From: Pelagomonas calceolata
Taxonomy: Eukaryota > Sar > Pelagophyceae > Pelagomonadales > Pelagomonadaceae
Direction of reading: 5' to 3'
DNA length: 64,000 nt
NCBI GenBank assembly: GCA_918797485.1
Contig: CAKKNE010000002.1
Span: 1,020,501 to 1,084,500, forward strand
Position numbers and translations under genes: made by a program. This document shows positions 1,423-62,758 of this stretch, piece after piece (position 1 is the stretch's first letter; every line of letters begins with the position of its first letter). The notes under the pieces are model-generated. The model saw nothing but the letters and a program-made list of their open reading frames with translations, had not been told where the DNA came from and searched no databases.

Positions 1423-1444
1423 CTAGTGTCTTACAGGTCGCTAG
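1423..1444 (+). promoter_or_regulatory. CTAG-bounded promoter element, copy 1
   Basis: Reads CTAGTGTCTTACAG then GTCGCTAG. It lies in the divergent promoter between the heme-oxygenase-like gene (77 bp to its ATG) and NDUFB7 (217 bp to its ATG). Confidence 0.75.
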
Positions 1445-1661
1445 GTGCGGAGATTAGTCGACAAATTGAGCCCAGCGGACGCGGGACGACCGTCCTCTCG
1501 CGCGCCGAAGCTCTCGGTTTAGTATATCCACTGCGGAGCTCGTCAGCAACCAAGCGCGGGCGCCCGGCGGACTCCCCTCAGCACATTCACCACCAGCGGC
1601 TGCAAGGTCGCCGCGCGCGACAGCAAATCCGCGCGCCACAGCGCCGCACCTACGCGCAACC

Positions 1662-1925
1662 ATGGGCGGCGGCCACGACCTGCCGACGACGCCTGCCACG
1701 CGCACGGAAATGGCGGATGCGAACCTTGCGGTCGCATACCGCGACGCCTGCGCCCACCTTCTTATCCCTTTGAACAAATGCCGGCGCAAGACGTTCTACA
1801 TGCCTTGGGAGTGCGGCCATCTGAGACATGAATACGAGCGCTGCCAGTACGTCGAGTGGCTCAAGCGGAGCAAAGACGAGACGGTCCGCGCGTCGGCCGC
1901 GGACGGCGGCGGCGGGCACCACTGA
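1662..1925 (+). CDS. NDUFB7: NADH dehydrogenase (complex I) subunit NDUFB7/B18
   Basis: An 87-residue protein with the twin CX9C motif of the CHCH family: C-AHLLIPLNK-C followed by C-GHLRHEYER-C, separated by RRKTFYMPWE. This spacing and the sequence around it (LIPLNKCR, YMPWEC, HEYERCQY) are those of NDUFB7, an accessory subunit of respiratory complex I on the intermembrane-space side, where the two disulfides are made by the Mia40 pathway. Length is slightly shorter than animal homologues (about 120-137) because the C-terminal tail is a short Gly/His-rich end. The ATG is the first in frame and the N-terminus lacks a cleavable leader, as expected for a Mia40 substrate. Confidence 0.9.
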   Translation: MGGGHDLPTTPATRTEMADANLAVAYRDACAHLLIPLNKCRRKTFYMPWECGHLRHEYERCQYVEWLKRSKDETVRASAADGGGGHH

Positions 1926-2350
1926 GAGCCGTCGCTTTCGCATTGTAACTATAAAACTAGTAATAGGAGTCCTGCGGGCGGGCGCGCGGGGGCTCGACGG
2001 CCTGATGTGCAGAGGAGCGCAGTGCCAATCGCGTGAGCCAGAGAGCTGCCAATATCGCACAAACCCATAGAAAATAGGCTCTCAACTAACGGTTTGCATC
2101 CCTTACGCCTGCAAAAAACACGACTTGCCTGACGTCGTGCTGCAGTGCCCAGCAGACTGCCAATTGAGGCATTGCTCTGTTAGACTGAAATAGCCCCACG
2201 ACTGCGCAACAACGCGTGAGCAACAGTTGAAAGTGCGCCACGGACCCCCCGACGCCGCTGCGCAAAGCGCCGAACTCGTACGGACGCCTGAACAAGGCGC
2301 CGACGACTCGCGTTACGACGGGGCAAAAAAAAAGCAAGCAGACGCCGACG
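1926..2350. other. intergenic region, NDUFB7 to HDAC
   Basis: 425 bp between two same-strand genes. No convincing ORF, no copy of the CTAG-bounded promoter element and no introner. The first 60 bp are AT-richer and probably hold the NDUFB7 3' end (TTGTAACTATAAAAC). Confidence 0.5.
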
Positions 2351-3972
2351 ATGGCGGCGCGCGCCCGCCGCGGCGACAACAGCAAGCGCACGCTCTTCGT
2401 CACGCACCCCCACTGCGCGGAACACCGGATCGCCCACCACCCCGAGCAGCCCAAGCGCGTCGAGGCGATCGAGGCGGCCGTGCTTGCGCACTTCGGCGAG
2501 CGGTCCGCGGACTTCGCGCATGATCCATCACCGCCCGACGCCACCGCAGAAGCTCTAGGAAGGTTCCACACGAAGAAGCACCTTTCGAAGCTCGAGGGTC
2601 TATTCGACAAAGTCGAAGAGAGCGCGCAAGCGCCGCTCATGGACCCTAGAAGAGGCCGGACCAAGAGAAGGACGATGTTGTCGATTGATGAGGACACGGC
2701 CGTCATGCCCCGTTCAAGGGCAGCAGCTTTGAGCGCGGCGGGAGGGGCCTGCCGCGCCGTCGACGCCGTTCTAGGGCAAGAAAATTATCACAGTGCGTTT
2801 GCCTGTGTCAGACCGCCGGGCCACCACGCCACACCTTCGAGAGCCATGGGTTTTTGTCTCTACAACAATGCTGGAGTTGCGGCGCTCCACGCGAGAGCGA
2901 CGTACGGCATTCAACGAGTAGCTGTGGTAGATGTCGACGTGCACCACGGCAACGGGACCGAAGCCTTCTTCCGGGACGACGCGGATCTGTTCTACGCGTC
3001 CTTCCACCAGTCGGGCGACGACTTTTATCCAGGAACGGGCCTCGCCAAGGGCGCGAAGCAGGGTGCGATCTCGGCGTCCCGTCGTGTGGAGGTGCCTTCA
3101 CTTCCTTGGATGGACTCGTGGCCATCTCACGATGACGTGGGTCGTTTCTGTTTCGAGTTTGAGGCCGCATCGAGACCGCGATGCTCCGCGCAGGTTTCAG
3201 TCGAGGGCGGGAACTGAGCGTGAACGGCGCCAAAGTCGCCGGCGAGACGGGAATAAACAACAACGTCGTGAACTGTCCTCTGGGGAGAGGGGCTGGCTTG
3301 AGAGCTATCAGACGGGTGATGGAGGAGAAAATTCTACCGGCCTTATCCGCTTTTGCGCCTGGTTTGGTTATCATATCATTAGGATTCGACGCTTTAGCGA
3401 AGGACCCCATCGGTGGTCTTAATTTAGATCCGCACGACTACGCGTATCTTACACGCTCTATACAGGATGCTGCACAATGTAAACTCATCAGTGTCTTGGA
3501 AGGAGGGTACGACGTGAGAGAAATAGCGAGGGGTGCGGTGGCCCACGTTTCCGAATTAGCGCGCCTAGCGAAAGGAGCCAAGCCCTCGGACGACCTGCGG
3601 CGGCTGCGGGGCGCGTCGGTCATTTCCGAACTCTCGTCGGGCGAGTCCTGGGGCTCGGAGCAGTCGTATGGCGACGAGGACGACGACGTGAACACGCTCG
3701 TGGCGAACATGTCGCTCGATTCCGTCGCTGATGGAGCGATGGCGCGGTCGCCTACCGCCAACCGAATGAGCATGGACTCGGTGGCCGAGCGGCCGGCGAC
3801 GCCGCCCCTGCTGCCGCAGCCGCCACCTAGACGGTCTCCTAGAGGTGTTTCTCCGGGAGTGTTACCTGTCGAGTACGGCGCCGACGGGAGTCCATTAAGA
3901 CGGTCGCCGCGCGTGTCGAACGGCCACGCCGTTGCTTCCCAGCCGCCGCCGGCGATGCCGCGGATAGAGTAA
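2351..3972 (+). CDS. class II-type histone deacetylase, one intron
   Basis: Two open blocks join to one deacetylase. Block 1 carries the HDAC core: CVRPPGHHATPSRAMGFCLY with the tandem active-site His pair, then VAVVDVDVHHGNGTEAFF with the Asp and His zinc ligands, and FYASFHQ. Block 2 carries IISLGFDALAKDPIGGLNL, which holds the third zinc-ligand Asp, and SVLEGGYD. All metal and charge-relay residues are present, so the enzyme should remove acetyl groups from lysines. An intron must lie near 3063-3193, the frame-compatible GT to CGCAG; the acceptor could also be slightly downstream. It has no introner ends. The last 130 residues are a Ser/Pro-rich tail with repeats of SMDSVAE type and no known domain. 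HHGNGTE favours class II over class I. Confidence 0.88.
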
Positions 3973-4501
3973 GATTTTAGCAAGACTCATACGCCGCCTC
4001 TGATGTCCCTGGAGGGTCGCCCTTCTTGGTGGGAAGCCTGCGCGGTGATCTTGTTACGGTGCTAGGACTAGTGGGTGGAGCCCCTGGGGGGGGAGAGAGA
4101 CCGCGTGTCACCGACTCCTCGGCGACGGACGCGGGCCGCGTCGATCATAACACTGGAGCACTTGTCGCCCTTGGGAAGCCCGCGCGGGGCGCCGCGAGGA
4201 AAGCGCCGACTGCTGTGAGCGCTACGGGTCCAAGACCTAGCACCGAGCCCTCCCGCGCCCCCCGGGCACCGCGGGGACCTCTGCGCTTGCCACATCTCGT
4301 GGCTAGTAGGATAATCTCGCGAAGGCTAGAGCGACACAACCGTCGAGCGCTGTCTGCCGGTAGGGCTGTAAAAGGAGGTGAAAAGGCTGCCCATTCATAA
4401 GGAAGAGGCCGGACAGCACCTCCACAGCGCGTCAACAGCCGGCGGGCACCGCAGCGCGCGACGCCGCCGCGGCGGGGCTGCCCTCGCAGCACGCACCAAC
4501 G
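3973..4501. other. intergenic region, HDAC to kinase, with a 3' motif
   Basis: 529 bp without a supported gene. It contains a copy of the GTTACGGTGCTAGGA motif 79 bp after the HDAC stop. The rest is GC-rich and shows no CTAG-bounded promoter element. Confidence 0.5.
4051..4078 (+). other. downstream motif GTTACGGTGCTAGGA, copy 1
   Basis: TTGTTACGGTGCTAGGA followed by CTAGTGGGTGGAG. The reverse complement of the same 30-bp stretch, including the GACTAGTGGG extension, occurs at 52205-52236 downstream of the PDCD4-like gene. Confidence 0.6.
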
Positions 4502-6664
4502 ATGAGGAGCTTCCGGAGCAACCAGCGCGGCCGCGTCCAGCCCGCGGAGTACGCCGGCGAGGTGACCAAGCCCCAACAGCGCTACGGTTCAAGACATCGG
4601 CCGCGCTCCGCCGGCGCCTCGTCTCGACGGTACGGGAGCTCGAGGTGGCCGAAGCCGCAATACCCCCAGTACCACCAGTACGCGAACGTCCCGGCCGGGA
4701 GGCCGTCCTCCGCCCACTACCAACAACGACCTAGGACCGCCGGGAGTCGGCCCTCGTCTGGTAATACGGCTAACGTCGACGCCTGGTTACGAGCGCGCCA
4801 CGGCACGGCGACCTACGGCCAGCCCCCGCAGCGGGCCTACGGCCAGTCGTCGGGGTATGGCCAACGCCCTAGGAGCGCCTCGGCGGCGTCACGTGCTCAA
4901 CAGCCGAAGAAAGAGGAACGCCGCGAATACTACCCCTCCTCGGTCCCGCCGAAAGCCGGCGCGCCGAGACCGTCGTCGGCCTCTTCCTCAAGACACCAAG
5001 TGGCCAATAATGACACGGCCCACGCGTTGTTGCGGCAGCAGCAGTACCAGCAAGAGCGCCAGGAGTACGTCCCGCCGAGCCAACAGCAAACATCAAGGCC
5101 GTCGTCCGCGGCCTACGCTCTCGGCACGGACAAGGGCTACGTTGTTGAGAGGGAGGTCTCGGAGCAGATCAAGAAGCCCCAGCGGCCCCAGTCGGCGAGT
5201 GCCGCGCGAGCGCCACCCAAGCCCCAAACGCAGACGCCGGCTTTTGCTGGCAAAGCCAGTCGCCCACAGAGTGCGGGCGCGACGCGACGGCCGGCGCCGC
5301 CGACGGAGTGGAAGCAGCCGTCCGTGGACGACAAAAATGCAGTGTTCAAGTCGGGCACGCAACGGCCGCAGAGTGCCGGTGGTGGTGTCCGTCGACGAAA
5401 CAACAGCCAGGAGGAACAATACCAATGCGCTCCGGACCAGCGGGACTATCTGGCTCGATTGTTAGTGCAGTCGACGCAGTCCAGAAGAGGTTTACCCGAT
5501 TTCTATTCGTTTGGCAAGGTGATCGGTGTCGGTAGTTTCGGCACGGTCCGCATCGCCTGGCACAAGCTCACGGGCCGGAAAGTGGCCATCAAGACCTACG
5601 AGCGCTCCAAAATGAAGGACCCGCAGCAGTGGAAGCGGGTCCAGCAGGAAGCGAGGGTCATGGAGAAGCTTTCTGATAGCACGTTGATCTGTCGCTTTCT
5701 CGAAGCTTTTGAGACCGTGGCGCCTCGCAGAGCGCATTTAGTGATGGAGTTCCTGCCTGGAGGTAATCTCTGCAGCTACGTGAAGGCCAAAAGACGTATA
5801 AGCGAAGGCGAGCTCCAACCGCTCCTGGTCCAGTTAGCGACGGCTTTAGATCATATGCATTCATTAAATATAGTGCACCGAGACATTAAGTTGGAGAACA
5901 TCATCTTCCTCGACGAGCGCCATAAGGTCGTGAGAATTATTGATTTCGGGTTTAGTACAAGATGTGCCCCTGACAGAAGATTGAGGTTGTTCTGCGGGAC
6001 GCCGTCGTACATGGCGCCGGAAATTGTTCGGAGGACGGAGTATCGCGGCAAGCCCATCGATCTGTGGTCGTTTGGTGTGGTGGCCTATGCTTGCTTGGGC
6101 GGGCACTTCCCCTTTGCGGCGCGGAGTCAGCCGGATCTTTATAGAAAGATCCTGCGAGGTACGTACCGACTGCCGGAAGGGTGTTCTTCTGGAGCTGCTG
6201 CATTGCTCCAGCAGTGCCTCGTGGTGGACGTGGCGCGACGGATAACGGCCCCCGATTTAAGACGGCATCCCTTCGTGACCGCCGGTTTACAGAACGGGCA
6301 GATGGCCGGCGGGCATGTTGGTGCTCTCACTAGATCGAGAAATCCGGAGCACGACCTACGACGGGAAGCTTCGCAACGCATCGAGGCCCTCGGCGTGCCC
6401 AAGGACGCGCTGCGCGCGGCGGTCTGTCGGGGCGAACACACGCCCCTCACGAGTTGCTACTACCTGCTCATGGACTCGTTGGGCATCCGCGAGCGGCCGA
6501 ACGAGCCCGCCCCAGCCGAGGTGGAGGCGAAGGCGGCGCCGGCCGCCTACCCCCAGAAGGCGGGCAAGGAGAACGCCGCGCCCGACGTCCTGGTCATCGA
6601 TCATGATGCCGTGAAGAAACCAGTCGACGCCGAGGCGGACAAGCCCCCCGCGCTCGTGGTTTGA
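4502..6664 (+). CDS. Ser/Thr protein kinase with N-terminal RPxSA repeats
   Basis: A 720-residue protein. Residues 1-325 are low-complexity, Gln/Ser/Arg/Pro-rich, and hold about ten copies of R-P-[RSQ]-[ST]-[AG] (RPRSA, RPSSA, RPQSA). Residues about 334-600 are a complete eukaryotic kinase: GVGSFGTV glycine loop, VAIK (K364), HRDIKLEN (D461), DFG (D481), GTPSYMAPE activation end and DLWSFGVVAYACLGG. The sequence is closest in feel to the CAMK/MARK group. It should phosphorylate Ser/Thr. The tail is acidic and Ala-rich. The repeated RPxSA sites could be docking or substrate sites, or a microtubule/ciliary localisation region as in other repeat-rich cytoskeletal kinases; that is inference. The start is the first ATG of the frame. 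Confidence 0.88.
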   Translation: MRSFRSNQRGRVQPAEYAGEVTKPQQRYGSRHRPRSAGASSRRYGSSRWPKPQYPQYHQYANVPAGRPSSAHYQQRPRTAGSRPSSGNTANVDAWLRARHGTATYGQPPQRAYGQSSGYGQRPRSASAASRAQQPKKEERREYYPSSVPPKAGAPRPSSASSSRHQVANNDTAHALLRQQQYQQERQEYVPPSQQQTSRPSSAAYALGTDKGYVVEREVSEQIKKPQRPQSASAARAPPKPQTQTPAFAGKASRPQSAGATRRPAPPTEWKQPSVDDKNAVFKSGTQRPQSAGGGVRRRNNSQEEQYQCAPDQRDYLARLLVQSTQSRRGLPDFYSFGKVIGVGSFGTVRIAWHKLTGRKVAIKTYERSKMKDPQQWKRVQQEARVMEKLSDSTLICRFLEAFETVAPRRAHLVMEFLPGGNLCSYVKAKRRISEGELQPLLVQLATALDHMHSLNIVHRDIKLENIIFLDERHKVVRIIDFGFSTRCAPDRRLRLFCGTPSYMAPEIVRRTEYRGKPIDLWSFGVVAYACLGGHFPFAARSQPDLYRKILRGTYRLPEGCSSGAAALLQQCLVVDVARRITAPDLRRHPFVTAGLQNGQMAGGHVGALTRSRNPEHDLRREASQRIEALGVPKDALRAAVCRGEHTPLTSCYYLLMDSLGIRERPNEPAPAEVEAKAAPAAYPQKAGKENAAPDVLVIDHDAVKKPVDAEADKPPALVV

Positions 6665-6838
6665 ATCCCCGCTTCGCTTCGGAAGAATAAGATTTCGTTT
6701 CGGAATACGAAGTACGTGCGTCGTTCCTCCGCGTCCGCGGCGCCGCGCCGCCGTCCCCGGCCCGCTGTTCTACCTGTGGACCCGCCGTCCAGGCGCTCAC
6801 GACCCAAACTGCACAAAGTCACCAACAACAATCTTACA

Positions 6839-7588
6839 CTACGACTCCTCCACAAAGGGCACCGGCTCGTCCCCGCCCGGCGCCAGCCGCCCACACGCGG
6901 CCCGCACGTACGCGTCGATCCGCTCGAACGGCGCGCGGTCGATCTCGATCGCGTCAATACGCCTCCTCAACACCTCGAGCGCGCCGTCGCGGCGGCGGCG
7001 TCGAGCGCAGCGCCCGACCGTCTCGTCGCAGAACTCGCCGAAGGCGTCGACGTCTTCGTCTAAGCTTCGAGCCGCCTCCAGGACAACTGATTCCTCGCCC
7101 TCTAAGCGCCGCGCCTCCGCCTGCACGACGTCGAGCTGGCGCCTTAACGACCGCGCCTCGCGGCGCGCCCGGTCCAGAGCGAGCGCGACGGCGTCCCGGT
7201 CCGTCGTATCAATCGAGGCCGGCGGATCCGGCAGCGACGCCTCGCCGACGGCGCGCGCGTATTTAAGCGCTCGTGCCCGCGCGTCCGCCGCCCGCCCGTC
7301 GACGGCCGCCGCGGCACGTGCGCAACACCGCGCGCAGACGGGATCACTTTCGTCGGCCGCGCCTCGCCTATGCTCCCTCAAACACCTCTGGATCGCCTCG
7401 GCGGCCGTCTCCGGTGCTCCTCCTCCTCCCGTCTCGGCGAAGGGGTCGCTGCCGCCCAGCGCGTCCAGTACCACGACGAACTGGTCGTCGACGACCTCCG
7501 GTAATGAAGTTGGGGGCCGCGGCGGCGGGAGCGGCTCGTTTGATAGCGGGGCTTTACAATTTGAACATGTGTGGCCCGCTGCGGCCAT
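6839..7588 (-). CDS. Beclin-1/ATG6-like protein lacking most of the BARA domain
   Basis: With the ATG at 7588 the protein starts MAAAGHTCSNCKAPL and has 249 residues. It has the Beclin-1 N-terminal layout: a CxxC pair (C-SNC), a linker, a second CxxC pair (DPVCARCCARAAAAVD, compare HPLCEECTDTLLDQLD), then a helical region with LDVVQAEARRLEGEE, which matches the QAEAERLDQEE stretch of Beclin. Beclin is the scaffold of the autophagy PI3-kinase complex. The C-terminal BARA membrane-binding domain seems missing or very diverged: the protein ends soon after the coiled coil. The frame is open 61 residues further upstream, but the short start is preferred because it aligns with Beclin and lies 199 bp from a promoter element. 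Confidence 0.5.
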   Translation of the reverse strand: MAAAGHTCSNCKAPLSNEPLPPPRPPTSLPEVVDDQFVVVLDALGGSDPFAETGGGGAPETAAEAIQRCLREHRRGAADESDPVCARCCARAAAAVDGRAADARARALKYARAVGEASLPDPPASIDTTDRDAVALALDRARREARSLRRQLDVVQAEARRLEGEESVVLEAARSLDEDVDAFGEFCDETVGRCARRRRRDGALEVLRRRIDAIEIDRAPFERIDAYVRAACGRLAPGGDEPVPFVEES

Positions 7589-7786
7589 CTCTTTTTGAGG
7601 TATGCGCCGCGCCGGCGGCTGCGAGAAGCAGAGCACAAATTCGGCTGTGGCCTGAGGGCCGTGAAGGCGTGCTCTATGCCAAGCTGGTGATCGCACTGAT
7701 GGAAGACGGCTTTTGATCCGTACAACACACCCGAATGACTGTGCCTGGCGCGATTCACGGCCGCGAAGCACTTTTTGGCTGTTTGC

Positions 7787-7808
7787 TAGTGTGTTACATG
7801 CCGCTAGC
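7787..7808 (+). promoter_or_regulatory. CTAG-bounded promoter element, copy 2
   Basis: Reads CTAGTGTGTTACATGCC then GCTAG. It is almost centred between the Beclin-like start (199 bp) and the start at 8004 (195 bp). Confidence 0.75.
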
Positions 7809-8003
7809 TAATCTCGGAGGGGGCTTGTGACCACGGCGTTTTACGCGCGCGCTAGACCCTGAAAGACAAAGCAAGCCAGCGGCGCAGCGCCTCAAGGATC
7901 AGAAGTCGCCGCCTGCGCATTTTAGGGTCCCCGCGTCAGCCAACCGCTGCGTTTTGCCCGGAGAGCCCAGCGAGTCACAGCCGGAAAAAGACGCGCACGC
8001 GCC

Positions 8004-8783: not shown

Positions 8784-8872
8784 ATGCGGTTACCACGTCC
8801 GGATGTGGCGGAGGCGTCGCAGCGAGGCGGCGCCCACACGATTTTGACGAGTAAATACACAGTACACAATCA

Positions 8873-10680: not shown

Positions 10681-10702
10681 CTAGCGGCCTGTAAGACACT
10701 AG
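10681..10702 (-). promoter_or_regulatory. CTAG-bounded promoter element, copy 3
   Basis: CTAGCGGCCTGTAAG then ACACTAG on the plus strand, i.e. the reverse orientation. It is 123 bp from the carotenoid dioxygenase ATG and 113 bp from the ATG at 10816. Confidence 0.8.
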
Positions 10703-11305: not shown

Positions 11306-13398
11306 TTAATCACGCGGCAAAACCCCTTCCACATCAGACACATCCCCAACCCCACGTGCACGCCTTTGCAGCTCGAACCACAAAGCCGCCGACACGCGGA
11401 CGTCGTGGTCGTCGTCGGCGCGCCGCGAGGCCTCCCGGCTCTCCCGCGCCGCGGCGCCCGCACGCACGCCGAAACGCTCGAGGAGCCGCTCCACGTCGAA
11501 TCCCCGCGTTGTCATGGCCGGGTCCACGACCAGTAGAAATAGGCTCCGGTCCATCGTATGATAGTCGTCGGAGTCGATAGCGAGGTCACCGCCCGCTAAT
11601 CCGCCCGCCAGGACCTCGACGAGCAACGCCAAGAGCGCCCCTTTGATGCCTCCCGCCGGTAGCTGGGCGCCGCCGTCCAACGCCGCTGCGGCGTCGCGCG
11701 TAGGCTTTCCGTCCGCGTCGATCGCGACGCCCCGCGGCAATTTTGCACCCGCGGCCGCCGCGACCTCGATCGCCGCCCTAGAGGACGCGGCGAGCGCCAG
11801 ATCGACGACCACAGGCGGAGCATCTCTCCGAGGACACGCCCACGCGATGGGGTTCGTGCCGAGGCACGGCTCGGCGCTGCCCTCCACGGCGAGGTAGGCG
11901 GGCGTGTTGCACGCCAGCACCGCGACGAGTCCGCGCTCCGCCAGCCGCTCGACCCACGGCGCGAGTCGTCCGGAGACGCTCCTCGTGTTCGAAATTATAC
12001 CAACGGCCGCTCCGTGCGTTTCGGCCGCCGCCGCCGCCGCGTCGACCGCGTCCCTCAATGGGCCAAATGCCAGACCTCCACCTCCATCAACCTGTGCACA
12101 AATCACCAGTGAGTCAGGTGCCCTCGCGTCGATGGCGTGGAGGTCAGATATGCGTCGCGACATTTGATTTATGCACTGCCGTCAACTCGGACGACGACAC
12201 TTTTCTGGTCCATGAGGACTCGTACGTCGGGGGTCGCCGCAATGTCCCCTCGTCCCAAAGCATCGCAGACCTCCGCGATTCGTCGAAGCCCGTGCGCCGC
12301 GCGGCCGTCAACCTCAGCGGCAACGAACGCGTCCGCGGCCGCCGAGGCTTGGGGTCGCGACGACCCGCTCCGCTCGAGCGCGGCGGTCGCGACGGCGCGC
12401 GCCGCCGATGCCGTCACCGAGACCGTCACGTCGGCTTCAGCACCGCCGCCGCGCGGTAGCGCCGTGGTTCGCCACATGCGCCGCTTCGACGCGGACTCGG
12501 GTACGCCTGTCGCGGCATGCATCGTCCGCAGGTTGTTCCACACGACATAGTCTCCAGGCTCCCAAGCGTGCGCGTGGACGTATTCCGGTCGTGTGCACCA
12601 AGCGGCGAGGGCGTCGACGAGCTCAGATCCAGCAATCTCCTTGCCGGTCTCGTCGACGACATACGAGATGGCGTGCGGCGCCAGGTACAACGCACCGTCG
12701 TCCACGAGATGGTAGAGCGCCGGCTCGACGAGCGCCTCCTTCCTGGTTGCCGACAGCGTCTTCGTCGTCCCTCCAGCAAATCTCCGGAAGGAGGCGCTGA
12801 GCTGCTCGTAGGAGTGCGCGGCCCGTAGCTTCGCGAGTCGGGACCGGATGCGTGCGGGCAGGTCCTCGCAGGCGGCCACCGTCGAGCAGAACACCGTCTG
12901 GCCGACGCCGCCGCCCGGCGTTTCTAAGCAGTACATGGCCGACGCCAGCGGCCGCGGCGAGCGGAAGCTCTGGTCCGTGTGCCAGGAGGGCTTGCCCGTC
13001 TCCGCATCATATTGCCAATTCGTGTCGTCGGCCCGGCCTTGAAACACGCCCGACGAGGGCACCGTGGCGAACTCGTGCACGCGGCCCGCGTCGTCCACGA
13101 GGGTCTCGTAGCTACCGTCTGCGGGTGCCGCCTCGACGTCGCCGAAGACACTCGACAGAGTGATGAGCTCGTCGCAACTCAAGCCGCGCAAGCCTCTCAG
13201 CAGTAGGAGACCTCTCGACGCGGCGAAGGCGTCGCGCAGGGTTTTGTGCGCCTTCTCGGTGCGCAAGTCGTCTCGTGTAATTCCGCGCACCTCTAGTCCA
13301 AAGCTCGGGCTGAGGGGGTGCAGCTCGATGGCGTGCACTGCTGCGAATAGCTCGATGGTGAGTCCTGCGACGAGCAGCAGTCCGCATGACCCCCGCAT
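11306..13398 (-). CDS. fusion of TauD/TfdA-type dioxygenase and LDH2-type malate/lactate dehydrogenase
   Basis: Joined across an introner intron (12092-12186) the protein has 665 residues. Residues 1-22 are a hydrophobic leader. Residues about 25-315 are a TauD/TfdA Fe(II)/2-oxoglutarate dioxygenase, with SWHTDQSF (H140, D142), the distal H294 in RTMHAATG and R310. Residues about 325-665 are a complete LDH2/malate-lactate dehydrogenase: AEVDGRAAHGLRRIAE with the catalytic-type HG, VDGGGGLAFGPLRDAV, GTNPIAWACP and GGIKGALLALLVEVLAGGL. LDH2 enzymes use NAD(P)H on 2-oxoacids. The dioxygenase consumes a 2-oxoacid and the second module reduces 2-oxoacids, so the two could act on a common pool. The donor GTTGACGG and acceptor give an exact frame and an uninterrupted LDH2 motif. 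Confidence 0.82.
12092..12178. mobile_element. introner A, in the TauD-LDH2 gene
   Basis: In gene sense it runs CAGTGCATAAATCAAATG to GGTGATTTGTGCACAG, flanked by GTTGACGG and GTTGATGG (7 of 8 match). It carries the core CACGCCATCGACGCGA. Its termini differ from the usual GTGTGGAAATC by matching changes at both ends (GTGCATAAATC and GATTTGTGCAC), a subfamily variant. Confidence 0.85.
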
Positions 13399-13576: not shown

Positions 13577-13596
13577 CTAGCGGTGTAAGACACTAG
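13577..13596 (-). promoter_or_regulatory. CTAG-bounded promoter element, copy 4
   Basis: CTAGCGGTGTAAGACACTAG, 20 bp, lacking two bases in the middle. It lies 179 bp from the TauD-LDH2 ATG and 163 bp from the ATG at 13759. Confidence 0.75.
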
Positions 13597-17479: not shown

Positions 17480-17501
17480 CTAGTGTGTTACAGGCCGCTA
17501 G
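17480..17501 (+). promoter_or_regulatory. CTAG-bounded promoter element, copy 5
   Basis: CTAGTGTGTTACAGGCC then GCTAG, between divergent genes. It is unusually close (52 bp) to the ATG at 17554 and 112 bp from the ATG at 17368. Confidence 0.78.
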
Positions 17502-20567: not shown

Positions 20568-20589
20568 CTAGCGGCCTGTAAGACACTAG
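20568..20589 (-). promoter_or_regulatory. CTAG-bounded promoter element, copy 6
   Basis: CTAGCGGCCTGTAAG then ACACTAG, reverse orientation, 87 bp upstream of the same-strand gene at 20677 and 55 bp after the previous stop. Confidence 0.8.
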
Positions 20590-23413: not shown

Positions 23414-23435
23414 CTAGTATGTGTGGACACGCTAG
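23414..23435 (+). promoter_or_regulatory. CTAG-bounded promoter element, diverged copy 7
   Basis: CTAGTATGTGTGG then ACACGCTAG. It keeps the length of 22 bp and both ends but differs in the middle. It lies between the divergent starts at 23292 and 23611. Confidence 0.5.
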
Positions 23436-29655: not shown

Positions 29656-29862
29656 CTCCAAATTCACAATTCATCATAGTCGTCCACTGAGACCATTTCT
29701 TTACGAATAGCGGCCCGGAAGAGCCAAACTCGGAGCTAGCGTAATCGACATACTAGCAAATTTAAAGATACGCTTCGATAGCGTCAAAAGAATGACCCAA
29801 ATTCAGAATACATCCTAGTCGTTCGCCGAGACCAAAGATTTCAGCGTAGCGGCCCGGCAACA
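29656..29862 (+). repeat. diverged direct repeat pair, about 145 bp apart
   Basis: CCAAATTCACAATTCATCAT...AGTCGTCCACTGAGACC...ATAGCGGCCCGG (29659-29718) recurs as CCAAATTCAGAATACATCCT...AGTCGTTCGCCGAGACC...GTAGCGGCCCGG (29797-29856). Roughly 70 percent of the compared bases agree by eye. Confidence 0.6.
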
Positions 29863-32091: not shown

Positions 32092-32113
32092 CTAGTGTCT
32101 TATTGGACGCTAA
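32092..32113 (+). promoter_or_regulatory. CTAG-bounded promoter element, copy 8
   Basis: CTAGTGTCTTATTGG then ACGCTAA; the last CTAG is changed to CTAA. It lies 193 bp from the LSm10-like ATG and 251 bp from the ATG at 31840. Confidence 0.68.
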
Positions 32114-33887: not shown

Positions 33888-33909
33888 CTAGCGGCCTGTA
33901 AGACACTAG
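33888..33909 (-). promoter_or_regulatory. CTAG-bounded promoter element, copy 9
   Basis: CTAGCGGCCTGTAAG then ACACTAG, identical to copies 3 and 6. It is 193 bp from the FKBP ATG and 210 bp from the sulfotransferase ATG. Confidence 0.8.
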
Positions 33910-37313: not shown

Positions 37314-37335
37314 CTAGCGGCATGTAAGGCACTAG
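37314..37335 (-). promoter_or_regulatory. CTAG-bounded promoter element, copy 10
   Basis: CTAGCGGCATGTAAG then GCACTAG, one change in each half from the commonest form. It is 224 bp from the ATG at 37089 and 112 bp from that at 37448. Confidence 0.75.
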
Positions 37336-39236: not shown

Positions 39237-39258
39237 CTAGTGTCTTACTGGCCGCTAG
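39237..39258 (+). promoter_or_regulatory. CTAG-bounded promoter element, copy 11
   Basis: CTAGTGTCTTACTGGCC then GCTAG, 180 bp upstream of the MgtE-like gene. Both neighbours are on the plus strand, so this copy serves only one promoter. Confidence 0.78.
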
Positions 39259-40459: not shown

Positions 40460-40481
40460 CTAGTGTCTTACATGCCGCTAG
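40460..40481 (+). promoter_or_regulatory. CTAG-bounded promoter element, copy 12
   Basis: CTAGTGTCTTACATGCC then GCTAG, 245 bp upstream of the ATG at 40727. Confidence 0.78.
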
Positions 40482-42195: not shown

Positions 42196-42213
42196 CTAGC
42201 TGTAAGACACTAG
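42196..42213 (-). promoter_or_regulatory. CTAG-bounded promoter element, short copy 13
   Basis: CTAGCTGTAAGACACTAG, 18 bp; the CGGCC after the first CTAG is lost. It is 121 bp upstream of the ATG at 42335. Confidence 0.68.
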
Positions 42214-42334: not shown

Positions 42335-43545
42335 ATGAGGCTGCTGCTGCTCATCCTTAGCACCACCACAACACTGGTGCAGCCACGCACCGAGTTCCTC
42401 AAGTGTGCGCATCGACTCAAGGCGTACGGCGCGGCATGGCTCGCGCGCACGGAACTCCTCGCGCGCCAGCCCCTGTCTCAGAACAAGGACGCTCTTGAAT
42501 ACGCCTCGTTCCACATATTAATATACAGCATGAGATTGGGCGCTACGGCACTGAAGGCGGTGGACGACAGCTGGTGGGTGAACCACATCAGTGGCTACGA
42601 ACACGGCGTCTTCAGGATGAAAGGAAAAGAAGCGTCCGACACGAATGTGAACGCCATGGTAGAAATACTCACAAACAAACTGTGTGTACCCAGAACGACG
42701 CCGCCGACGTCGACGTTAGCATTAATACCCTTCTACGGCGGCCTCACGCGGGACGGCGCGCGCGACCGCGGAATCGACGAAGAAACGCCGAACACGGGGA
42801 CGGCCCATAGCGTGTCGAGTGGCGCGACGAAGCTGAAAACGCTGAAAGCCGTGCTTTGTTCGGCTCTATCGTTCTGCAAAGCCGCTCTGGTTGGTGTCCG
42901 TGTGGAAATCAAAATTTTACGGCGCGTTCGTGCTGAATCGTTGCGTCGTCCTCCACGCCATCGACGCGACGCTTGCTCGATGGCGTGGCGATGCTGGTTC
43001 CTCATCGCTCGACGGGGCCAGCACGGCCGTGTCATCGCCGTGAAATGACTTCGTGAAGAATTATTGGGTGCACCCAACGCACTGGTTTGATTTCCACACA
43101 GGTCGGCGTCTGTACCCCCGGAGACTACGAGTCTGTTAATGAATTAATAAGGACGCTGCCCGCCGGTCAAGCGCGGGCCGTGCTGTTGAACTGTGCGAAA
43201 GCACCGGCCTACACCCCATATAAACTTCTACGAATGGTCCAGCGCCACGCCAAGGGAAATTTGAACGCGTCGCAAGTCGCGCCGGCCGCGCGCGGTGTCG
43301 TGCCGTGGCTATCGTCTCTCGAGTACGAATTCGTTCTCTACGACGAGGCGGACCAGACGCTCCACTTCGAAGGCACGGCGTTGCGCGACGTCTTCGACGT
43401 TCTGACCCAGCACCCCGATTACTACGTGGCCCCGCAGCGCTACGAGAAGGGGTGGGGCGGCATCCCGCGGTTCGTTCTTCAGGGGAACTTGTCACGGTCG
43501 ATGAACAAGTGCGAGCGATCCTTGCCGCGGCTGGCGTATACATAA
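42335..43545 (+). CDS. unknown secreted protein with introner intron
   Basis: Spliced across introner E the protein has 332 or 336 residues depending on the donor. MRLLLLILSTTTTLVQP is a signal peptide. The body has no motif I know; exon 1 ends ...LSFCKAALVGV and exon 2 begins GVCTPGDYESVNELIRTLPA and contains ALRDVFDVLTQHPDYYVAPQ. Splicing from GTTGGTGT (42890) restores ALVGVCTPGD exactly, while the internal GTGGAAATC donor (42902) adds four residues; both are in frame. The tail has a basic, Cys-containing end. Confidence 0.65.
42898..43101. mobile_element. introner E, longest near-intact copy
   Basis: 204 bp. CCGTGTGGAAATCAAAATTT at the left, TGGTTTGATTTCCACACAG at the right, with the palindromic core CACGCCATCGACGCGACGC...TGCTCGATGGCGTGG in the middle. 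Flanks GTTGGTGT and GTCGGCGT (6 of 8, silent differences). Orientation is opposite to introners B and I. Confidence 0.9.
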
Positions 43546-52100: not shown

Positions 52101-52117
52101 CTAGCCAAGCACACTAG
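52101..52117 (-). promoter_or_regulatory. possible CTAG-bounded promoter element, weak
   Basis: CTAGCCAAGCACACTAG, only 17 bp, keeps CTAGC at one end and ACACTAG at the other. It is 240 bp upstream of the giant coiled-coil gene. Confidence 0.35.
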
Positions 52118-53619: not shown

Positions 53620-53649
53620 CGTGGTCCTACGCTGCGCCGTCGCGCTGCG

Positions 53650-54068: not shown

Positions 54069-54087
54069 CTAGAGACTTGCACGCTAG
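54069..54087 (+). promoter_or_regulatory. CTAG-bounded promoter element, diverged copy 14
   Basis: CTAGAGACTTGCACGCTAG, 19 bp. It keeps CTAG, the CTT core and CGCTAG. It is 93 bp upstream of the ATG at 54181. Confidence 0.5.
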
Positions 54088-54180: not shown

Positions 54181-56084
54181 ATGCGGCGCCAAAAGCTCGT
54201 CGCAGTGCTGCTGCTGGTGGCCCACACTCAGCACTGCACCGCACTGCTGGCACCGCAAGCGGCACGCAAAACCGCACCGCTGCGAGCCGTACGCATCGAA
54301 GGCCTCCTCGACGAAGACGTAATCAGCAAGCGAACAAATACGCACCGCTGCCTCAAGGAGCTGCGGAAAAGGGGCGCCGTCGCCGACGCCCTCGCAACAA
54401 ATGCAGTAGTAAAATCCCAATTCGGCGACCCCCTCGCGACGGGCGCCGAGGACGCCATCAAAATCAACAACGTGCTAGCCCAGGCGATCACGGAGACGGA
54501 TGCTCCCGACTACAATGGCGTGAACGCCACGCAGAGCTGGCGCCTCAAGCGCGGCCCGCTGCGGCTCGAAGGACTGACGAAAGTCAGCTTCGATAATGAT
54601 GGATGCGCTTCAATAATAGAGCTGGGCGTCTCGAACGTCAACGGGCTGGAAGTGGACGCGACGAGCGCGCAGGCGCGGCAGGCCCTCGTCGGTTTTTTGG
54701 GCGGCGCCTCCTCCGAGCGCTACAACGCCGTCGCGGACTTCGGCCAGCGGGCTTTGGCGACGACGCTGGGGCTCGTCTCGACCGCCTCGACGACAGATGA
54801 GGAGGACTCGAGCAGCGAGGGGCCGTGTGGAAATCAACCAGTTCCGGGGACGACGTCGCGTCGATGGCGTGGGGCGCCCGAAATTTGATTGCCACACAGG
54901 CGAAGAGGCGGCGCCGAACTCGTCGAAGCTCGGCGACGCGGCCTTCGACGCCTACGTTACAATCGACGCGACGGCGCGCGGCGCCCTGGCGTCGCTCGAC
55001 TTAGCGTTGGGCCGCGACGATGCCGCCGCGGACGCGGCCGCGCGCGACGCGTGTTCGCCAAACCTCCGAGTGTACGGGTTGGCCGGCGAGGAGGTCGCGG
55101 GTTTGGATGGCGACCTCGACGCCGTTTTAAGGACGTTGCGGGCGGCTCGCGGCGCTCGTTCGACACTAGAGAGCACGAACGCCCTCGAGACGACGACGGC
55201 GTCCGTGCGGAAAGCAAAAGCCGACGTCGAGGCCCGCTGCCTCGAAGCGACGGTGGTAATCAAGGCGGTACCGTCGCCGGGCGGCGCCTTCCTCGCGGCG
55301 GCGCTCGGCTTGAGCAACGCGACGGTCATAGAGGCCGACGTGGTGTACGACCTCGATAATCTCGCGACGGCCGTGACGCTCGAAGGTTTAAGGGTGGACG
55401 GCCGGGCGCTTGAGGCGCCCGGATTCTATAAGTGGGCCGCGGCGGCGCGCGCGGCGTTGGCCCCGGCCTGTGTGGAAATCAACAAGCTACGGAGCGTCGG
55501 CGGCGTAGGGCGCCCAAAATTTGATTTCCACACAGGCCCCGGCGGCGCCTCAAATAAAACCTGCGCCGCCACCCTCGAAGAAAATCGGCGAGCCCGACGC
55601 AGTCGCTATCCTCAGAGCGGCGGACGCGCTGCACGCGCTGCCGGACATGCTCATCGTCGGCGGATTAAGTGTAGACGCGTGGCTGGACCGCGCCGGTGTC
55701 GCGGAGGGCGTCGTCGCGACGGCCGGCCCTGCGCCCTTATTCCGCGGGCGGCGCGCGCTCGGCGACTCACTAAGGGCGGCCAAGGCGCTGCTGGCGCTGG
55801 GGCCGACGGCGACGTGCGCCGTCGAGCGCGTGTCGATCGAGAGGGACCGCTCGCTTACGGTAAAGATGACGCTGGCGCGGCCGGCCCTGCCGGATATTGT
55901 GTTGGTCGTGCGGCTGACCGTGGACGGCTCCATTAATGCAGTCGACACGACGTCGGTGACCGTCGGCGGCGCGGAGCTCTCGCCGAAGGCGCTGACGGAC
56001 GCGCTCGACCGCGCGCGGGCGCTGGCGACGGCGCGGCGGGACCTGGCGTCGCTCTTCTCCTCCCGGGGGGGCGGCGGGGATTAA
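54181..56084 (+). CDS. unknown plastid or secreted protein with two introner introns
   Basis: Exons 54181-54826, 54900-55471 and 55536-56084 give an exact frame of 588 residues. The leader MRRQKLVAVLLLVAHTQHCT is a signal peptide followed by a basic segment, as in stramenopile plastid targeting. The mature part is rich in Ala, Leu and Asp. Two regions look related to each other: LTKVSFDNDGCASIIELGVS, VEIDVVYDLDNLATAVTLEG-like and LTVDGSINAVDTTSVTVGGA, possibly three repeats of one domain (each ends LEGLxVDG or VGGAxLS). I cannot name it. Both introns are young introners. Confidence 0.68.
54823..54899. mobile_element. introner F
   Basis: 77 bp: CCGTGTGGAAATCAACCAG to AAATTTGATTGCCACACAG, core CGCGTCGATGGCGTGGGG. 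Flanks GCGAGGGG and GCGAAGAG (6 of 8). The phase is exact only with the internal donor GTGGAAATC at 54827, or a GC donor at 54815. Confidence 0.88.
55468..55535. mobile_element. introner G, perfect target duplication
   Basis: 68 bp, the shortest copy: CTGTGTGGAAATCAACAAG to AAATTTGATTTCCACACAG, flanked by GCCCCGGC on both sides (8 of 8). It shares GTAGGGCGCCC-type inner sequence with introner F 640 bp away, so one may derive from the other. Confidence 0.93.
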
Positions 56085-56107
56085 CTTGTTGGTTGTGTGT
56101 AAATCGT

Positions 56108-56124
56108 CGTTAGGTGCTAGGAAT
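56108..56124 (+). other. downstream motif GTTA-GGTGCTAGGA
   Basis: CGTCGTTAGGTGCTAGGAATG, 24 bp after the stop at 56084 and in the same sense; one or two bases shorter than the other copies. Confidence 0.5.
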
Positions 56125-56153
56125 GTGAGGCACAGTGTTTACAAAATCACATG

Positions 56154-56175
56154 CTAGTGTCTTACAAGCCGCTAG
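56154..56175 (+). promoter_or_regulatory. CTAG-bounded promoter element, copy 15
   Basis: CTAGTGTCTTACAAGCC then GCTAG, 186 bp upstream of the ATG at 56362. Confidence 0.8.
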
Positions 56176-56361
56176 CTATCACAGCCGCCCGCTTTGCATT
56201 TTAAGCACAAGGCTGCGCTACGCAGCGGCACGTCGATTAGCGATTTGAATCCGCGAAACAAGTGCCAAGACCAAATTTGCCAGCAAACGCGTCGTAAGAG
56301 CGCGCCCTGGGAGCAAATTTGCTCTTTTGAACTGAAAGACCAAGAGCTGCTGCGCGAATCG

Positions 56362-59300
56362 ATGGAGGCCCTGGTCAACTCCCTCGACACCGCCGCGCTG
56401 TCGCGCGAGCAGCTCGAGGCCGAGGTGACCAGGCTGCGGTCCGAGAACGGCCAGCTGCGGATGGACACCGACGATCCCTTCCAGCTCCTGCGCGATTTAC
56501 CAGAAGACGAACCGCGGCCGTCGCCATCGAAATTTAATAGAGGCAAGGCCAGCGCGTCCGGCGAGCGGCGCGCGAGCACCGCGCGCCGCGAGCCCCTCGG
56601 ACCGCCACCGCCGCGCCGCGGCACGCTCGACATCACGAAGTTCTTCGCCCCCGACGAGGCGGCGCGCTACCGCCGGTGCGCCGACAAGGGCGCCGCCGAG
56701 GCCGCCGTGCGAGCGGCTCGAGCCGCGGAGAAGGAACGCGCGAAGCCGCCCGACGTCATCGGGGAGTGGGCGGCGCGCCACCCCAGCAGCGGTGAGATCG
56801 CCCAATTAGGTGGAGAGATGGTCGCGGCCGTTAGCCGAGGCACGACGTCATTACCCCTGGACCAGCTCGTGCAGATGGGCTTTGAGCGAGGAGCGGCGGC
56901 CGCAACTTTAGTTGCTTGTAGTAATGATGTGGCCCAGGCCGCTACTCTGTTGACTGAGGCTTCTGAAATGGCACGTATAAAAAGGGAGGAGCATCTGCGG
57001 CGCGATAAGACGTGGCGCAAGCGTGGGCAGTACGAAGCCAAACAGGCGGGCCTCGACCACAAGGGCCCGCAGCATGTCGCTGCTCTCGCATTAACACAGC
57101 CGACGATCCCTCTGGCATTGCTGGAGGCGCCGTCCGTGGACTGCGTCTGGGACTTTATTGAACAGACGAATCAGGAGTACGACCGGCTGCACGAGGCTTA
57201 TGAGCGGCAGTTCTGGGGCGAGCGCATGGCTCTGTCGTCGTCAGACTACTCTCCTGAGAATGAGTCTGCTTCAAAGGAGGCCCTGGAGGCCTTCTTACGA
57301 GATTCTGATCGATTAGCGAAGTGCCATTCACTAAAAGAGGGCCTGTTCACGACGGAGAGACAGAAAAGAATACTAGACGGCTTCGTGCGCGTCTTTGATG
57401 CTTACCAGATGGACCCGGCCGCTGTGAGCATGAGAAGCGACTGCGTGCCTCTGGAACGGGCGCTCACGGAGGCCCGCAAAGCATTAATACTTTCGGTCGA
57501 CGGCCCGAAGTCGGCGCCGCAACTACGGACTCTGTTAAGGACGTCTGCCGATGAGAACACGAGGGAACGGGCCTGGAAGGAACTGCGGAAGGTCGGGCCC
57601 TGTATTGCGGACGGATTGTGCGCGTTAGTAAAAAGACGCAATGCGATGGCGCGCGCGCTCGGCTTCGAAGATTTTTACGACTACAAGGTCTCAAAAACTG
57701 AAGGCTTCGGGAAAAAGAAATTGTTCGGCATGTTGGACGCGTTGAGAGACGGCACCACTACTCTCAATGATCGAGCTAGAGCGTCACTATCCGAAGATGA
57801 TAGGAAGCCGTGGAACGTTTCGCGAGCAACTTCTGGAGACGAGGCGCAACTAGACGCCTACTTCCCCTTCGGCAAGGCGCTGGAGGCCTGGGGGCGTTCC
57901 TTCGCCCAGATGGGTATTCGGTATAGGGGGAGTACGATGACCCTAGATCTACTAGAAAGACAAAACAAGTACAGTAATGGCTTCTGCCACTGGCCTCGCT
58001 GTGCTTACGTGCGACGCGACCATTCGTTACGACCCTCGTCCACGAACTTCACGTCGTTGTGTGATCCTCTGCAGACCGGCTCCGGTAGAGTAGCGTTGAA
58101 GACGCGCGTGCCGGTGTGGAAATCAACCAGTGAGTCAGGTTGTCTTCGCGTCGACGGCGTCTGAGCGTCGTCGAGCCCTCCACGCCATCGACGCGACGTG
58201 TTTCCCACTTCTCGCTGAGTGAGAGCGGTCGCGTCTCGCGATCTCGGCACCGCGGCCATGTTTTCGGCTCAAACGCGGACACGACCGCCGAGCGATGCAC
58301 GCAAACCCCGAGAGACCCCGAGCTGAAGCTTGAACTCACGCAGGCTCATGCACGAGGCCGGCCACGCCGCGCACTTCGCGAACGTCGCGCAGGAGTCTCC
58401 TTTATTTGCGCAGGAACGAGCACCAACATCAATAGCCTACGCCGAAACCCAAGCCATGTTCCTGGATTCTCTTGTGAGTGACGCGTCGTGGCGGTGTCGA
58501 TACGCCCTCAATGCGAGTGGTGAGCGCTTACCCTTTGCGTTGCACGAGGCCGATCTACGCTCAAGGCACCCGTACCAAGTGTTTCAGCTGCGAGCGTTGC
58601 TGGCGGTACCCTACTTCGAGAAGGCGCTCTACGAGCACGCTGATTTGACGCCGGAATCCATCATAGCATTGGCCGATCAGGTCGAGCATGACATCGTCGG
58701 CGGCTTGGCCCCGCGACCGCTCCTCAGCGTGCCGCACATTCTGAGGGATGAGTCGTCGTGTTATTACCACGGTTATGTATTGGCCGAGATGGCCGTGCAG
58801 CAAACGCGAAGACACTTTGGGAGTAGTATCGTGGACAACCCGTCGGTCGGCGAAGCGCTCACGCAAGCTTATTGGAGGCCCGGCAACACGGCGGACTTTT
58901 TTGAGTTAGTAGAGAAATTGACGCATGAACCGTTATCTGGTAATGCGTGGATTAGCTCATTGAATAGGGACGTGGATGAATTAGTGGCGAGCGAGCGCCG
59001 AGCGTACGATGACGCTATCGTCACAAGAGAGGACGTCGACCTAGATATGAGGATTCGGATTGTGGACGGCGATGATGTCATAGCGGACTCGGACGAGTGC
59101 GGTTCATTTCTAGCGACGTGTCGAGTCTTCGAGGCGTACCTCGAGAAAAGGTATGGCGATGGTATGGATAGAGGTCATGTTATGAAGGAGACAATTGTAC
59201 AAAGAGAGGAAGTCCCTGTGGAAGAGCCGCGCCGCAAACGAAGTGCAGCAATAGCGTGGGGCCTCGACAGGCCCGACAAGGCGTCGGTCATCATCACGAA

Positions 59301-60783: not shown

Positions 60784-60785
60784 TG

Positions 60786-62269
60786 TTATGTGGAGATACT
60801 TAGCATCGCGCTCGCGGGCGCGACCACTCCCTCTCCCCAGCCGACCTCGCCGACGCCCGGCACGCAGGAGTACTGCTTCGCGACGTAGGGCGGCAGCATG
60901 TGCGTCAGGTCCGGCCGCCGCGGATTCACGTCGTAGAACGCAGACCAGCCGCACCGGTAGCGCGGCACGAAGGCGCCGCCCTCTCCGAGGAGCAGCGGCG
61001 CCGGCGCGACCGGAAACGGGGTGCACGGCGGGCACGTGTCGCGGTCGGGCGCGTCCGCGGGGCAGCAGACGGCGGCGACGGTAGTGAGCCGGTCGCGGCG
61101 CTCCCGCGGATAAGCCAGGCACGCCTGGACGTAGCGCACGCCATCTATAGTAGCATCCCAGCCGAAGTGCGTGTGGCCGAAGACGTGCACGTCCGGCTGC
61201 AGGCGCGCGACGCGCCGCTCGAGGAACGTCGAGCCCACGGCCTTCGCGAGCGCCGGCACGAACAGGTACCGCTTCTCAGGAACTAATTCAGGGCGCGGGA
61301 CGAAGTGCGAGAAGGTCACGAGCGGCAGTGAGGGATGTGCCCGGCGCAGCGCGGCGATGGCGCCATCATCGTTGCGCGCGTCCAGGGCCTCCGCGACCGA
61401 GTCATCCGTTTGCGAGAGGCCTGTGCATAAATCAAAATTTCACGGCGCGTTCCACGCCATCGACGCGACGCCTGCTCGATGGCGTGGCGATGCCGGTTCC
61501 CCATTGCTCGACGGAGCCAACACGGCCGCGTCATCGCCGAGAAGTGCACCCGACACACTGGCTGATTTCCACACAGAGACAGACCCGGGAACTTGCAGAG
61601 GTAAAAGTCCGAGATAACCTGGGATGCGGGCGGCAGGCCCGCCCAGCCCGTCACCTCGGGCTCGCGGTCGAAGGCCGCGTGGTGCCAGGCGCAGAGCGGC
61701 GCGACCACACAACCGCCCATGATGGCTGGTGTGCGGCGCACGCCGAGCTCGTCGCACAGAGCGTCGACCGCTCGCAATTTGCTGAGCGAGTCGGCCCAGG
61801 GCTCGCCGCGCGTGACCCAGACGTCGTGGTTGCCCGGGACAAAACTCACGTCAGCGAAGGCGCGCTTGCACAGTTGTAACGTCTCCCTTAGAATCGAGAA
61901 GCGCGACGACACGTCGCCGGCCAAGATGAGGCCGTCCCGTCGCAAGTCCGTCCTTGAACACATACGTTTTAACCAGTCCAGGTTCTCCCCATGGTCCGTG
62001 TGCACGTCGGAGAGGGCCCAGAGCCGCGGCGGCGGCTCCGGACCGGCTTCCGGCGGCGGGGGCGGCGGCAGATCAACTGGCGCGTCGGCGAGGCACTTCG
62101 CCGACGCCCAGCCTTTCAACGGCGCCAGCACTTCCCGCCGCGCGACGCCGTCGTGGAACGCGGACTCGCCGCAAGTCAGCACCGTCCCCTTCGGCAGCTC
62201 GCCTATGACGTCGGACGCCAACGAAGGCCCCGCTCGGACCAGCGCCGCCTTGTTCTTCACGATCAGCAT
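60786..62269 (-). CDS. SH3b-metallophosphoesterase
   Basis: Exons 62269-61573 and 61420-60786 give 443 residues. Residues 1-60 are a bacterial-type SH3 domain (LIVKNKAALVRAGPSLASDV, GWASAKCLAD). From about 85 the calcineurin-like phosphoesterase core is present: WALSDVHTDHG, GLILAGDVSS, FVPGNHDVWVTRG, then, after the intron, TFSHFVPRPEL and DVHVFGHTHFG (the GHTH motif). All metal ligands are there. The C-terminal 100 residues are Pro/Cys-containing. The ATG overlaps the LSm5 stop (TGATG) and the gene's stop is 2 bp from that of the convergent peptidase fusion. Confidence 0.83.
61421..61576. mobile_element. introner I
   Basis: 156 bp; in gene sense CTGTGTGGAAATCAGCCAG to TTTTGATTTATGCACAG, with the long palindromic core GCCACGCCATCGAGCAGGCG...GTCGATGGCGTGG. 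It mixes the GTGTGG left end with the TGCATAAATC variant right end. Flanks match at 5 of 8. Its inner part is about 92 percent like introner E in the opposite orientation. Confidence 0.88.
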
Positions 62270-62541
62270 CACTTCCTCGGTTGGGCATCGGGCGCCTCCG
62301 GATCGCCCCCGGGAACCATCATGGCCACGTTGTTGCCATTCAACAAAATCTGGTCGAGTTTTGTTTTTTCCCGACCGCGCGCCGTCACGACGTACTCCGT
62401 CACATCATCTAAGACCATATTAACAAATTCGTCGAAGCCGCGCAACGTACCCACCACTTCCTTGTCGCCCTTCATGATGACCCAGATCCTAGAACCGATG
62501 CACTTGTCTACCAACTCGAGGGGGAGGAGGCGGCCGGCCAT
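62269..62541 (-). CDS. LSM5: U6 snRNA-associated Sm-like protein LSm5
   Basis: A 90-residue protein that matches LSm5 closely along its length: [75 protein letters not shown]. Sm1 (G-T-L-x-G-F-D-x-F-V-N-M-V-L) and Sm2 (I-L-L-N-G-N-N) are intact. LSm5 is part of the LSm2-8 ring on U6 snRNA in the nucleus and LSm1-7 in mRNA decay. The stop overlaps the next gene's ATG on the same strand. The promoter element is 198 bp upstream. Confidence 0.96.
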
Positions 62542-62738
62542 TTTTTTGTCGTTTGTGGCGTGTTTGGTGCGGCGCGGCTGTCGAGATGTTGTCGCTGCTG
62601 CTGGATTGGTGCGGCGCAGCGCTTGTGGAGATGCCGTGGCGTGCTGTGGGCAACGCTGTCAGTCTGTCAAAGGCACGAGTGGTGCACGTAGCGCGTCGTA
62701 TTCGCTGGCGCGGCAATTTGGTCCCAGGAGGCTTTTTG

Positions 62739-62758
62739 CTAGTGTCTTTCAACGCTAG
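62739..62758 (+). promoter_or_regulatory. CTAG-bounded promoter element, copy 16
   Basis: CTAGTGTCTTTCAACGCTAG, 20 bp, 198 bp upstream of LSm5. Confidence 0.7.

Follow-up and report, generated by a model that had tools for sequence, protein, structure and literature searches.

Sequence and question

Why does one short sequence, bounded by CTAG at either end, recur between so many genes of the pelagophyte alga Pelagomonas calceolata? We approached this question from a 64,000-nucleotide stretch of contig CAKKNE010000002.1 (C2:1020501-1084500, hereafter the window) and, more densely, from the 264 contiguous kb that comprise the window and its neighbours (C2:1010501-1274500). The genome comprises 8 contigs that total 32,445,274 bases. 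For strain RCC100, the genome paper reports 16,667 genes and a GC content of 63.6% in an assembly of 32.4 Mb, made up of six nuclear contigs together with the plastid and the mitochondrion (PMC9481584). A preliminary description of the window had taken the recurring sequence for a general promoter element or factor binding site, with a solo transposon end as the alternative. Our comparisons of the DNA support the former, in that the element is confined to promoters and phased to predicted start codons. A general promoter factor of this alga probably binds it, as a composite site free in its orientation that would serve both genes of a divergent pair.

Thousands of copies of a two-ended element

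The exact two-ended pattern, CTAGTGTCTTAC-N1-8-GCTAG, occurs 2,192 times in the whole genome (1,094 + 1,098), whereas its reversed-pattern control is absent (0 + 0). With the spacer fixed at 5 bases and up to three mismatches allowed, at least 1,335 + at least 1,270 matches were obtained, against 11 + 18 for the control. The left 12-mer by itself is present in 2,364 copies (1,186 + 1,178; control 0 + 1), and the right half accompanies 2,192 of these 2,364 exact left halves (93%). Searching the genome for the core TGTCTTACAGGCC with up to one mismatch yielded 627 + 633 = 1,260 matches versus 11 + 5 = 16 in the reversed-pattern control; with up to two mismatches, the window holds 11 matches versus 0.79 expected, one of which (at 10306) has no CTAG ends. 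Upon scoring the 264 kb, we found 44 elements at a score of 16 or above and 0, 0 and 0 in three Markov controls. The earlier observation of a recurring element is confirmed. The exact left 12-mer is present in 24 of the 44 elements, and combining this share with the genome-wide counts leads to an extrapolated total of about 4,000 elements (roughly 3,700-4,400).

All 14 main copies listed in the preliminary description exist, 13 at the base given there and one at 7786 instead of 7787. Among the diverged copies that it proposed, the one at 54069 lies above the controls, none of which reached 16, whereas the one at 23414 scores within their range, and at 52101 there are just two CTAGs 13 bp apart, with no element scored. 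The copies in the window are as follows:

1423..1444, plus strand, element in a divergent interval
7786..7807, plus strand, element in a divergent interval
10681..10702, minus strand, element in a divergent interval
13577..13596, minus strand, element (20-bp form) in a divergent interval
17480..17501, plus strand, element in a divergent interval
20568..20589, minus strand, element in a tandem interval
32092..32113, plus strand, element with right end CTAA, in a divergent interval
33888..33909, minus strand, element in a divergent interval
37314..37335, minus strand, element in a divergent interval
39237..39258, plus strand, element in a tandem interval
40460..40481, plus strand, element in a tandem interval
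42196..42213, minus strand, element (18-bp form), intronic in the gene model and re-read as a tandem promoter
54069..54087, plus strand, diverged element of 19 bp in a divergent interval, score 16.1
56154..56175, plus strand, element in a tandem interval
62739..62758, plus strand, element (20-bp form) in a tandem interval
23414..23435, plus strand, probable degenerate element in a divergent interval, CTAG ends kept and core diverged, score 14.0, within control range
29736..29756, minus strand, probable degenerate element in a tandem interval, CTAG ends kept and core diverged, score 14.7, within control range

Elements are held by 9 of 11 divergent, 5 of 12 tandem and 0 of 12 convergent intervals of the window, in addition to the re-read copy at 42196, around which the upstream frame stops at 42116 and an in-frame ATG follows at 42335. 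Outside the 44 elements of the 264 kb, pairs of CTAG 16-19 bp apart number nine in the 37.8 kb of promoter intervals versus two in the 207.7 kb of coding DNA, with one more in convergent intervals and two in predicted introns. Because several of these degenerate pairs have CTAGTATGT in common or terminate in TACGCTAG, some additional promoters are probably marked by weaker forms of the element.

An elastic spacer and an excess of information

The consensus over the 264 kb reads TTGCTAGTGTCTTAC-aggc-CGCTAGCt; the element is about 22-28 bp long, and position-specific conservation drops off 2-4 bp beyond its edges. All 39 elements counted for the left half have the same CTA there (five with an extra T, CTTTAC, were excluded from this count), and all 44 have the same GCTA on the right. 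The length of the element varies with the spacer between TCTTAC and GCTAG, which among 100 listed of the 2,192 sites measured 5 bases in 71, 4 in 17, 3 in 6, 1 in 4 and 6 in 2. Both ends read roughly TWGCTAGYG on opposite strands, and these inverted half-sites suggest that the site may be bound by a dimer.

The information content of the sites (R_seq) amounted to 37.5 bits over 24 positions without the spacer (n = 39) and, once the standard spacer was included, to 41.5 bits (n = 26), figures that are inflated by the selection of the set by score, with a bias expected to be small since no more than 6 hits fall in the score range 15-17. For locating 2,500-8,000 sites in this genome, 13.0-14.7 bits would be needed (R_freq). 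Information in excess of need can mean that more than one protein reads a site, and the putative factor probably has more than one DNA-binding module.

The anatomy also bears on the transposon alternative, in which each copy would be what is left of a transposon with a CTAG target preference, either a solo end or a tiny fragment, spread by copying. The CTAG at both ends and the near-identical copies in both orientations are what such an origin would leave. However, the CTAG letters are almost invariant while spacer letters and spacer length vary, which is not the even decay of neutral copies. Target-site duplications of lengths 2-6 were sought at several boundary offsets, and none rose above permutation. 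Predicted coding DNA holds no element with a score of 16 or above, and the element is kept in relatives where its flanks are within random identity (see below). With no target duplication and with this retention amid diverged flanks, a transposon origin appears very improbable.

Confinement to promoters and phasing to start codons

In the 264 kb, the gene model placed 140 genes, near the published density. By location, 29 of the 44 elements lie in divergent intervals, 11 in tandem intervals and 4 in predicted introns; none lies in the predicted coding DNA and none in the 55 convergent intervals. As convergent intervals make up 7.7 of the 45.5 intergenic kb, about 7 elements would be expected there by chance. 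Counted by interval, the element is present in 28 of the 54 divergent intervals, one of which has two copies, in 11 of the 30 tandem intervals and in none of the 55 convergent ones, usually as one copy that is common to both divergent genes. It stands upstream of 67 of 138 genes, the four re-read cases uncounted. In all four of these predicted introns, the reading frame from upstream has ended before the element is reached, and the downstream exon has an in-frame ATG beyond it, so that they can be re-read as tandem promoters. All 44 elements are then compatible with promoter intervals, four of them only after this re-reading. The preliminary description had named an even spread over coding, intronic and 3' regions as an outcome that would refute a promoter role, and this is not what we found. 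Its statement that the element marks almost every promoter overstates the share, which is about half.

The position within these intervals is also far from random, and the other refuting outcome named in that description, a lack of phasing, is not seen with respect to predicted start codons. The distance to the nearest predicted ATG ranges from 63 to 286 bp for all 44 elements. A distance of 100-300 bp is seen for 89% of elements. When elements were placed at random within these intervals, the share was 51%, and none of 5,000 such placements reached the observed value. No element lies closer than 60 bp, as compared to 22% upon random placement. For the 15 tandem cases, counting the 4 re-read ones, distances to the predicted start codon scatter with a standard deviation (SD) of 56 bp versus 163 at random (P = 0.001); the SD to the upstream stop in tandem pairs is 249. 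Base composition near the ATG displays only a drop in T towards it, which is too weak for placing transcription starts.

This phasing bears on the possibility that the element is the site of an architectural (insulator) or replication-origin factor that happens to use promoters, with the transcription of neighbouring genes depending on it only indirectly. A long, information-rich and orientation-free site that often sits mid-interval between divergent genes would suit such a factor. Copies in tandem intervals are, however, phased to the downstream ATG and far less so to the upstream stop, the 55 convergent intervals are empty, and several thousand copies would seem many for origins in 32 Mb. 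We regard this possibility as unlikely.

With respect to the gene, the element points either way: of the 11 tandem cases, 6 have the same and 5 the opposite orientation, which, together with one reversed ortholog (see below), agrees with the earlier observation of copies in both orientations. A signal at the RNA level, acting in the 5' untranslated region, in RNA processing or in splicing, might be suspected from the GTAAG on the reverse strand, where TGTAAGA in the reverse complement resembles a 5' splice site, and from the copies in predicted introns (4 of 44 in the 264 kb, 5 of 22 elsewhere). Yet an RNA signal should not be free in its orientation or reversed in one member of an orthologous pair, and a single copy between divergent genes cannot be sense in both transcripts. 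Such a role is hardly credible.

Loci on other chromosomes display a similar distribution. Eleven loci on C1, C3, C4 and C5 (L001-L008 picked by motif, L030-L032 by place) contain 16 elements, of which 9 are divergent, 5 tandem, 2 in predicted introns, 0 coding and 0 convergent. The 10-kb locus L009 at the end of C1, which was excluded from this count, yielded a single hit, scoring 15.7, and nothing at 16 or above. Six further elements, in L039, L042, L043 and L044, comprise 2 tandem cases, 3 in predicted introns and 1 at a contig edge; at L044, the element lies 18 bp beyond the stop of a 1,168-codon open frame and 302 bp ahead of the start of a 137-codon frame. One divergent interval departs from the rule of one copy per interval, with two elements in the same orientation 37 bp apart (L003:1496 and L003:1533).

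Neighbouring genes in C2:1010501-1274500 alternate strongly in strand, with 54 divergent, 55 convergent and 30 tandem pairs among 139. The gene model fused at least 4 tandem pairs, and the excess of strand alternation would survive that. ARAGORN detected no tRNA in the window, and an association of the element with tRNA genes was rejected.

Retention in relatives

A search of the GTDB species genomes with the stringent pattern led to contigs of three metagenome-assembled genomes (MAGs), from marine samples judging by their titles. One contig, L039, aligns with C6 at 82% identity over 7.8 kb, nearly its full length, and a second contig of the same MAG, L042, is 83-90% identical in blocks and syntenic with this genome, whereas a third, L043, could not be placed on it. 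The other two GTDB stretches match this genome over part of their length only, L040 in two blocks that are 96% and 90% identical. We infer that L039 and L042 are contaminating DNA of a related alga, and occurrence in prokaryotes was rejected, as all three stretches, which match this genome in full or in part, resemble contaminating algal DNA. In the GTDB collection, the MAGs concerned bear the labels Spirochaeta and proteobacterium, and they include algal contigs (L039-L043); L040 and L041, which match the alga only partly, may be chimeric. The exact gapped pattern occurs 6 times in the three MAGs (control 0). With up to three mismatches, the pattern gave 5, 1 and 2 matches versus 14, 10 and 10 for the reversed control, so that the weaker MAG hits carry little weight.

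Virus-borne spread was considered and rejected as well. The exact pattern is absent from the viral contigs searched, and the gapped pattern matched six stretches once each (34-47% GC). These fall into two groups with nearly the same flanks, and the matches thus look like chance in related sequence.

Upon comparing the MAG promoters with their orthologs, we found the element retained here in 6 of 6 promoters, with identities of 21/22, 21/23, 19/20, 22/22, 22/22 and 20/22, the last in opposite orientation. As a yardstick for the flanks, random pairs of 40 bases averaged 18.7 matches, with a maximum of 25 in 200. Both 40-bp flanks fall within this random range (25 matches or fewer) for L039/L044 and for L042:5350, and the left flank does so for L042:2197 and L042:4287, whose right flanks have 28 and 29 matches, above the random range. 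At least one flank is therefore within random range in 4 of the 6 pairs. The L041 and L040 pairs have well-conserved flanks (36-39/40), and these, together with the high identity of the L040 blocks, mean that they say little. L043:9064, for which no ortholog was placed, and three weaker MAG hits were dropped. Since the pairs were found through the motif, they test retention and not the rate of gain.

Other sequence features

Related repeats with the words GTGTGGAAATCA and CGCCATCGACGCGACG occur in the window in both orientations, at 31253-31340, 42897-43047, 54815-54881, 58104-58160 and 61420-61575. They are probably introner elements, a class reported for P. calceolata in its genome paper (PMC9481584). 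A further repeat, of ~98 bp at L043:4825-4922, has dozens of listed copies in this genome, most of them 83-93% identical and some clustered. Within the window, one frame at 12169-13398 combines a TauD dioxygenase domain with the beginning of an Ldh_2 dehydrogenase domain, no Pfam match at E 0.001 was obtained for an open frame of 1,617 amino acids at 47008-51861, and one protein has 15 homologs by protein search, all without names.

A candidate site of a general promoter factor

Occurrence in both orientations, confinement to promoters and retention amid diverged flanks together point to a signal that acts at the DNA level and is under selection. In the mechanism that we propose, a factor with at least two DNA-binding modules would occupy the site, either as a dimer on the inverted TWGCTAGYG half-sites with added contacts to TCTTAC or as two proteins. 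Once bound, it would keep the promoter nucleosome-free and recruit the initiation machinery, with initiation on one or both sides. Its action would resemble that of the yeast general regulatory factors or of ZNF143/THAP11.

The comparison with these systems reveals both likenesses and differences. The sites of yeast Reb1, Abf1 and Rap1 are orientation-free and precede many unrelated genes, frequently in the interval that two divergent genes share. Sites of the yeast general regulatory factors are shorter, hold less information and have fixed spacing, whereas the algal element has a spacer that ranges over 1-6 bases and carries ~37-41 bits. Core promoter elements (TATA, Inr and the oomycete Inr) occur near gene starts genome-wide but are directional and fixed to the start site. 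The algal element lies in both orientations, at 63-286 bp from the predicted ATG, and lacks any fixed orientation in its tandem cases. The ZNF143/THAP11 (Ronin) element of animals is orientation-free and, like the algal one, recurs at many promoters. In the parts of the literature consulted, the Ronin element is described as highly conserved and present at many promoters, with its signal immediately upstream of transcription starts (PMC5695914), and ZNF143 as stimulating initiation, the unrelated ZNF143 and THAP11 reading nearly the same motif (PMC11118474). The Ronin consensus, CTGGGARWTGT (PMC5695914), has no CTAG ends and differs in its letters from the algal element; by eye, this word is not in the algal consensus on either strand. 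At the level of titles and abstracts, we found no description of the algal element. The main text of the P. calceolata genome paper (PMC9481584) contains none of the terms motif, promoter, upstream and CTAG, and the consulted part of a paper on stramenopile factor families (PMC4222949) names no such element. A paper on bidirectional promoters in fish contains an 11-letter part of the core once.

Several observations weigh against the site of a general promoter factor. The gene starts come from a simple gene model trained on the sequence itself and not from annotation. About half of the promoters are without the element, and no second promoter motif of like strength emerged from 6-mers and 8-mers over the 264 kb, so that the element is not obligatory. 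Outside the 264 kb, the model called 5 of 22 elements intronic, of which only L044 was resolved as a stop-to-start arrangement. At scores of 15-16, the 264 kb gave 5 hits (2 coding, 2 divergent and 1 intronic), and the three controls gave 2, 2 and 3. A looser scan of the same stretch (12-mer, up to two mismatches) gave 47 matches, including 2 coding and 2 convergent ones, all four without the second CTAG end.

That only about half of the promoters carry the element would also be expected if it were the site of one specific, non-general transcription factor with a large regulon, for example in growth or light response. Against this stand the 67 of 138 genes of one contiguous stretch that have it upstream and the Pfam labels of 30 scanned window frames, which by inspection, without statistics, have no obvious function in common. 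A specific regulon seems to us rather unlikely, and the site of a general promoter factor remains the reading that we favour.

More tentatively, and with considerable doubt, one may ask whether, at about half of the genes of pelagophytes, the usual core-promoter signals have given way to a lineage-specific composite element of ~28 bp and ~40 bits with an elastic spacer. It would be read by a complex dedicated to it, with two or more DNA-binding proteins, that defines bidirectional promoters. If so, the ~2.7-fold excess of information would reflect the reading of the element by more than one protein. Information so far above what site finding needs poses a testable puzzle in the evolution of binding sites. 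One element at about half of the promoters offers a handle on a missing general factor; it also indicates where the promoters of thousands of genes should lie, and it could be put to use as a promoter tool.

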